Of a stretch of 64,000 nt of DNA, positions 27,084 to 27,245 are shown in pieces. The stretch lies in NCBI GenBank assembly GCA_030373505.1, contig JAUCYS010000005.1:1-64000 (forward strand). Direction: 5' to 3'. Source of the stretch: Parasphingorhabdus sp. (lineage in GTDB: Bacteria > Pseudomonadota > Alphaproteobacteria > Sphingomonadales > Sphingomonadaceae). The notes under the pieces are model-generated. The model was not told the DNA's origin, ran no database searches, and worked only from the letters and a program-made list of their open reading frames with translations. The stretch's first letter is position 1; every line of letters starts with the position of its first letter. Position numbers and translations under genes: made by a program.

Positions 27084-27245
27084 GAGTCCGAACGGGCCAG
27101 CGGTCAAGGCCGTTAATATAGGTTAAAGGCGTATCTTAATGGTTAACGAAAGATGGAGCGGGAGAACGAAAGGAGTCCGCCACCAGATATGGAGTCGCGG
27201 TCTTTGCGCGGGACTCAATCCCTAGTGGTGTGACGGAAAAGACTC
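27084..27245 (-). promoter_or_regulatory. ccrM upstream region: five GANTC sites and three TTAA elements
   Basis: GANTC sites lie at 27084-27088, 27173-27177, 27192-27196, 27212-27216 and 27241-27245, upstream of ccrM. Three TTAA half-sites lie at 27123, 27136 and 27143, not in ideal N7 spacing but clustered 75-100 bp from the ccrM start. In Caulobacter CtrA activates ccrM and the product feeds back on its promoter; the same is inferred here. The remaining spacer (27246-27377) belongs to the desaturase promoter. Confidence 0.68.

Follow-up and report, generated by a model that had tools for sequence, protein, structure and literature searches.

The window, by which we mean the whole 64-kb stretch of Parasphingorhabdus DNA that was analysed, carries the adenine methyltransferase gene ccrM on its minus strand. 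A 329-bp spacer separates ccrM from an ORF at 27378–28409 that faces away from it, as the original prediction had stated, and that encodes a putative desaturase, a designation based on histidine motifs and on the naming in that prediction. Direct site listing placed GANTC at 27084, 27173, 27192, 27212, and 27241 and at no other position in this spacer, confirming the five sites predicted in 27084–27245; TTAA occurs four times (27113, 27123, 27136, and 27143), not three times as originally counted. All five GANTC sites are of the GAGTC/GACTC type, which accounts for 45 of the 156 GANTC sites of the window. The features of the region are as follows (GANTC sites and the linker carry no strand; conservation is counted over the 58 sequences described below).

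25909–27048, minus strand: ccrM, adenine methyltransferase gene, 379 aa (ORF and translation; 80 relatives at 69–97% identity)
27079–27107, minus strand: predicted core promoter, with −35 TTGAC at 27103–27107, a 17-bp spacer, and −10 CACCGT at 27079–27084
27084–27088: GANTC fused to the −10, of which its final base, read on the ccrM strand, forms position 1; kept in 47 of 58
27121–27146, minus strand: two CtrA-like half-sites, TTAACC at 27121–27126 and TTAACCAT at 27139–27146
27173–27177: GANTC beside the box pair, towards ccrM; least conserved of the five, at 30 of 58
27180–27195, minus strand: NrdR-like box 2, ACTCCATATCTGGTGG, nearer ccrM; forms, with box 1, the best-scoring pair of the 364 kb (22.0 bits)
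27192–27196: inner-edge GANTC of box 2; retained in 46 of 58 and part of the inner-edge tally
27196–27212: 17-bp linker between the boxes; site of a DnaA-like box in some Sphingomonas and freshwater relatives
27212–27216: inner-edge GANTC of box 1; retained in 49 of 58
27213–27228, minus strand: NrdR-like box 1, CCACTAGGGATTGAGT, farther from ccrM; from the consensus and nrd-matrix scans
27241–27245: outer GANTC, 29 bp away from the GANTC of box 1; retained in 54 of 58; alone among the five in fitting YGAKTCK

GANTC density and conservation upstream of ccrM

GANTC is scarce in the window, with 156 sites observed against a mean of 318 in shuffled sequences, or about half. Density was assessed in a sample made up of the window, C1:1–100000, and C17:1–200000, which covers 364 of the 3128 kb of the assembly (11.6%) and holds 742 GANTC sites. 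Within this sample, at least five sites in 165 bp occurred only at ctrA (9002–9068) and upstream of ccrM, and the same was true of at least four sites in 80 bp. The genome-wide ranking that the original prediction had proposed can thus be given for 364 of 3128 kb, in which ctrA and ccrM are the two densest places. Four-site clusters were present at four further places. One of these covers the start of gcrA (C1:21851–22462), with four GANTC sites at C1:22434–22588, so that gcrA joins ctrA and ccrM as a cell-cycle gene with clustered GANTC. The ctrA promoter cluster packs five sites into 67 bp, four of them GAGTC/GACTC, and no NrdR-like pair was found there. When GANTC was simulated as a Poisson process at the frequency seen in the 364-kb sample, at least five sites fell within 162 bp somewhere in about 4% of 64-kb stretches, so density alone is modest rather than strong evidence.

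Stronger evidence came from relatives. We used a family set of 80 ccrM loci, the best 80 of at least 582 and nearly all named Sphingomonadaceae or its genera; removal of near-identical rows left 58 sequences, the window included, for the conservation counts. On the ccrM strand, the typical family array reads GAGTC, 29 bp, GAGTC, 20 bp, GACTC, 19 bp, GACTC and ends with a GACTC about 40 bp before the ccrM ATG, at near-constant spacing. A sequence profile of the array gave a single match per genome in 13 of the 15 genomes of the same genus, our own included, the two genomes with no match being 67 and 82% complete, and matched nothing in ten genomes of other families of the same order. The profile also matched the same place on the opposite strand, as expected of a dyad. 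This rigid conservation across Sphingomonadaceae is strong evidence beyond density. The original suggestion of selection rather than chance is borne out by it: the five sites, from the outer one inward to the promoter, are kept in 54, 49, 46, 30, and 47 of the 58 sequences with near-constant spacing, and the ctrA and ccrM clusters outrank every other place in the 364 kb. The word CACACC at the outer end of box 1 (27221–27232) ranks among the best conserved in the region, more than an NrdR box demands.

The other elements of the spacer gave a mixed picture. In 52 of the 80 loci, including all 11 nearest, TTAACC lay in the 250 bp before ccrM, against 7.2 expected from shuffles, and TTAACCAT was present in 31 of the 80, whereas the full CtrA box TTAA-N7-TTAA was found upstream of ccrM in none of the 80. 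The CtrA control of ccrM envisaged originally is therefore supported at the level of half-sites but not of the full box. The desaturase motif appeared in only nine of the 80 loci, all among the 11 nearest; in the window and these nine relatives, the putative desaturase gene sits between rnhB and ccrM, while rnhB is the direct neighbour of the ccrM region in five others (L005, L006, and L013–L015). As the array is kept where rnhB adjoins, a role of the desaturase is not upheld. We also considered a replication origin, since CtrA-like, DnaA-like, and GANTC sites co-occur here, and set it aside: along the window, the cumulative GC skew declines gradually and shows no clear turn around 27 kb. Overall, the original prediction is partly supported: it had rightly seen a real, selected cluster, a part for the desaturase found no support, and it had missed the box pair and the promoter-fused GANTC. 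Two of the five GANTC sites lie inside the NrdR-like box pair and one is fused to the core promoter.

NrdR-like boxes and the predicted core promoter

Once aligned, the inner part of the array resolved into two 16-bp palindromes 17 bp apart. The published NrdR box is acaCwAtATaTwGtg, as quoted in PMC4009431, and in a letter-match scan against it the ccrM pair came first in the 64-kb window with 22 of 32 letters (next separate pair, 20). At least 22 of 32 letters were matched in 39 of the 80 family ccrM upstream regions but in only one of 1779 background blocks. We then scored the pair with a matrix built from nrd promoters only, namely 31 nrdJ pairs (from 40 class regions, chosen among the matches listed) and three nrdA pairs; because these pairs were picked by consensus match, the matrix owes nothing to ccrM but does depend on the consensus. 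With this matrix, the ccrM pair ranked first in 364 kb at 22.0 bits (next pair, 13.3), and 77 of the 80 family upstream regions reached p ≤ 0.01 with 200 shuffles each, the three failing loci being L076, L077, and L079. Same-genus nrdA operators, a type represented by one pair in the matrix, scored 21.6–27.2 bits in 15 of 16 loci, the sixteenth lying near a contig end, so that the ccrM pair scores as high as they do. Where the rnhB stop lay within 400 bp, both boxes were beyond it in 33 of 35 family loci.

When box spacing was varied, signal appeared at 33 bp only (median 22.0 bits; next 13.0), which is 1–2 bp longer than in most nrd operators examined. The 17-bp linker is at the upper end of the 14–17 bp range bound by the four NrdR proteins tested in PMC12051234, and the two boxes are helically phased. 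An nrdR gene is present in the same genome (C17:186658–187083; TIGR00244 over cut-off). The pair stands at ccrM and not at a ribonucleotide reductase gene, a context that is not disqualifying because topA of Pseudomonas aeruginosa, with a single NrdR box, is a reported target other than ribonucleotide reductase (PMC12051234, PMC4409342). No ribonucleotide reductase large subunit was found in our own assembly (88% complete), although 29 of the 30 genomes searched, ours among the 30, have one; this is probably an assembly gap, and because of it the nrd comparison rests on relatives.

The boxes at ccrM differ from those at nrd genes in their CcrM sites. Among the 65 of 80 family ccrM loci that scored at least 16 bits, GANTC stood at the inner box edge in 114 of 130 boxes and at the outer edge in none, whereas in the nrdJ control it stood at the inner edge in none of 62 boxes and at the outer edge in one; nor did any GANTC overlap with same-genus nrdA boxes. 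The ccrM boxes thus leave the NrdR optimum at their inner ends exactly so as to form a CcrM site. In three loci (L044, L060, and L062) the left box is NrdR-like even without its GANTC. DnaA-like boxes occur upstream of ccrM in 30 of the 80 loci against 0.4 expected, several of them within the linker, and in some Sphingomonas the NrdR-like boxes are degenerate and DnaA-like boxes sit there. The linker DnaA-like box GTGGATAA was seen in L029, L032, L037, L040, L041, L043, L044, L048, and L060–L062, sometimes with loss of the left GANTC. A DnaA-like box in the linker perhaps represents a swap of regulators.

Outside the family, 60 class CcrM matches were taken approximately best first, with G133 and G138 left out, and exclusion of two that belong to Sphingomonadaceae (L113 and L114) gave 58 other-family genomes. 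For locus L179, no orientation could be set. For a ctrA control, 44 genomes were searched, 36 had a match, and 33 were used, after omission of a partial match (G085), two matches at 48–49% identity (G044 and G158), and a second match in G146; these 33 ctrA upstream regions contained only 0–4 GANTC sites per 320 bp. With the nrd-only matrix, 31 of the 58 other-family ccrM upstream regions reached p ≤ 0.01, and at least 16 bits was reached by 12 of 33 ccrM upstream regions against none of 33 ctrA upstream regions of the same genomes, a comparison inflated by rnhB. Many of these matches fall in the conserved 3′ end of rnhB, and we tentatively read the high pairs in most of L173–L183 as rnhB coding sequence too. 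Pairs of at least 14 bits lay wholly downstream of a detected rnhB stop in five of the 58 genomes (L133, L162, L164, L166, and L169); seven further genomes had box 1 overlapping the end of rnhB and box 2 past it, and in 19 of the 58 the rnhB stop was not detected. A single box sought in intergenic sequence only gave p ≤ 0.01 in 6 of 38 and p ≤ 0.05 in 13 of 38. The NrdR signal outside the family is thus largely confounded by rnhB coding sequence, and for this reason we claim the predicted operator for Sphingomonadaceae and not class-wide.

The predicted core promoter extends beyond the family. TTGAC was present in all 80 family loci and in 53 of the 58 other-family genomes, and TTGAC-N14-GANTC in 58 of 80 and 36 of 58; even for the wider N10–17 form, 0.65 and 0.25 loci were expected from shuffles. 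All 36 other-family N14 sites have A-N3-T directly after GANTC, which, with the 17-bp spacer, gives a CANNNT −10 that begins with the final C of GANTC. Within the family, the A that follows GANTC is invariant (58 of 58), the T kept in only 16. The N14 form never occurred in the ctrA upstream regions of 33 of these other-family genomes, and in 364 kb of our own genome it occurred twice, at ccrM and inside an ORF at 19693 of the window. GANTC thus lies at a predicted sigma-70 promoter in a genome that has both gcrA and ccrM, as expected of a GcrA-type promoter. YGAKTCK fits one of the five GANTC sites (27241) and not the promoter one; this preference was not found in Brevundimonas in the data reported in PMC7987155.

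Alternative explanations and proposed regulation of ccrM

We consider it probable that the region combines an NrdR operator with a GcrA-type promoter, so that the dATP pool and hemimethylation at the replication fork steer ccrM. Rather unlikely, in our judgement, is a dense GANTC/TTAA region through which CcrM/GcrA and CtrA regulate ccrM without NrdR, the likeness to NrdR boxes being a by-product of GANTC spacing. Such a region would fit the top density rank of the ctrA and ccrM clusters in 364 kb, the TTAACC in 52 of 80 loci, the PMC7987155 prediction that GcrA controls ccrM and ctrA, and the CtrA control of ccrM reported for Caulobacter and Brucella (PMC2217572, PMC2877005). However, box columns beyond the GANTC letters (CACC, ATAT, and GTG) are likewise conserved, the left box of L044, L060, and L062 keeps the NrdR pattern without GANTC, and the full CtrA box is missing from all 80 loci. 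That a transcription factor other than NrdR binds the dyad seems improbable: the likeness to NrdR operators is one of sequence only and the 33-bp spacing exceeds that of most examined nrd operators by 1–2 bp, but boxes and phasing fit the nrd matrix far better than does the rest of the 364 kb.

Two further explanations have practically no weight. An RNA hairpin, small RNA, or terminator belonging to the upstream gene would agree with arms that are complementary in many sequences, 81.7% of cells pairing. We rejected it because shuffled columns paired at 80.7%, the covariation score was reached by 59 of 500 shuffles, and no Rfam family matched (one chance-level hit lay elsewhere). Chance clustering of GANTC, which the Poisson rate of about 4% per 64 kb would allow, is refuted by the conservation of sites and spacings across the family.

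NrdR is a regulator of dNTP supply, CcrM and GcrA form a replication-coupled epigenetic clock, and GcrA is the known reader of methylated GANTC. For the combined NrdR–GcrA reading, the sequence shows a pair of boxes that matches nrd operators and is conserved in the family, GANTC sites embedded in those boxes, and a promoter of fixed spacing; we infer NrdR binding, the sign of its effect, GcrA binding, and an effect of methylation on either. The upstream part would be a two-box operator of NrdR, a repressor that binds such pairs when loaded with dATP and ATP, and would most likely couple ccrM transcription to the dATP pool, as for ribonucleotide reductase. The downstream part would be a sigma-70 core promoter whose GANTC, fused to the −10, fits GcrA activation on methylated DNA. 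Passage of the replication fork would leave the GANTC sites at the box edges and in the promoter hemimethylated until CcrM acts, which would probably alter the use of the region by NrdR and GcrA and so give CcrM feedback on its own gene. Since the predicted operator ends 72 bp upstream of the −35, a distance too great for simple blocking of that promoter, NrdR could instead be an activator, loop the DNA, or use a second promoter; no second ccrM promoter was found.

More tentatively, the region may be a methylation-gated nucleotide sensor, in which binding of NrdR–dATP is set by adenine methylation at the inner box edges. Fork, dATP pool, and CcrM would then jointly time ccrM, and ribonucleotide reductase, whose boxes lack these inner-edge sites in the examined loci, would follow dATP alone. 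A conserved NrdR operator at ccrM with CcrM sites in both boxes would, if real, be a direct wire between the dNTP and methylation systems, and the predicted pair makes it testable whether DNA methylation tunes a nucleotide-sensing repressor. The TTGAC-N14-GANTC-A-N3-T core, present in 36 of the 58 other-family genomes, offers a precise place for methylation-dependent activation of ccrM.

Comparison with known systems

Parts of this proposal are in print. On the basis of motif scores, PMC7987155 predicted CcrM as a core GcrA target in many orders, and ctrA as a target in Caulobacterales and Sphingomonadales; for the loop between ctrA and ccrM drawn in the original prediction, the methylation half had thus already been published. 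GANTC sites at cell-cycle promoters were counted in PMC2877005, whose relevant passages draw no conclusion on control. For NrdR, PMC5343134 reconstructed 186 regulons, and ccrM is absent from its main text, the part that was searched; an earlier database prediction is possible. An open-access search showed no paper that, judged by its entry in the results, joins NrdR to CcrM. The predicted NrdR–ccrM link thus appears to have no earlier account that we found, while GcrA control of ccrM and ctrA had been predicted.

With the NrdR operators of ribonucleotide reductase operons (PMC12051234, PMC4409342), the ccrM pair shares two 16-bp palindromic boxes and helical phasing; it differs in standing at another kind of gene, in inner edges that are CcrM sites, in its 17-bp linker, and in its position about 70 bp upstream of the predicted −35. 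With the sigma-70 promoters controlled by GcrA and CcrM (PMC7987155, PMC3667746), it shares GANTC in the promoter of a cell-cycle gene and the presence of gcrA and ccrM, but here the promoter GANTC lies at a fixed N14 after TTGAC, is fused to the −10, and does not fit YGAKTCK, and a predicted NrdR operator is added. The ccrM gene of Caulobacter crescentus is likewise a methylase gene with GANTC in its own promoter, and its expression is reported to be tied to hemimethylation, with CtrA as the activator (PMC2217572). Here, the full CtrA box is absent from all 80 family loci. Adenine methylation sites inside the binding sites of a regulator are familiar from Lrp at pap and OxyR at agn43, both with Dam. 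At ccrM, by an effect of methylation that we only propose, the target would instead be the methylase gene itself and the regulator a nucleotide sensor.
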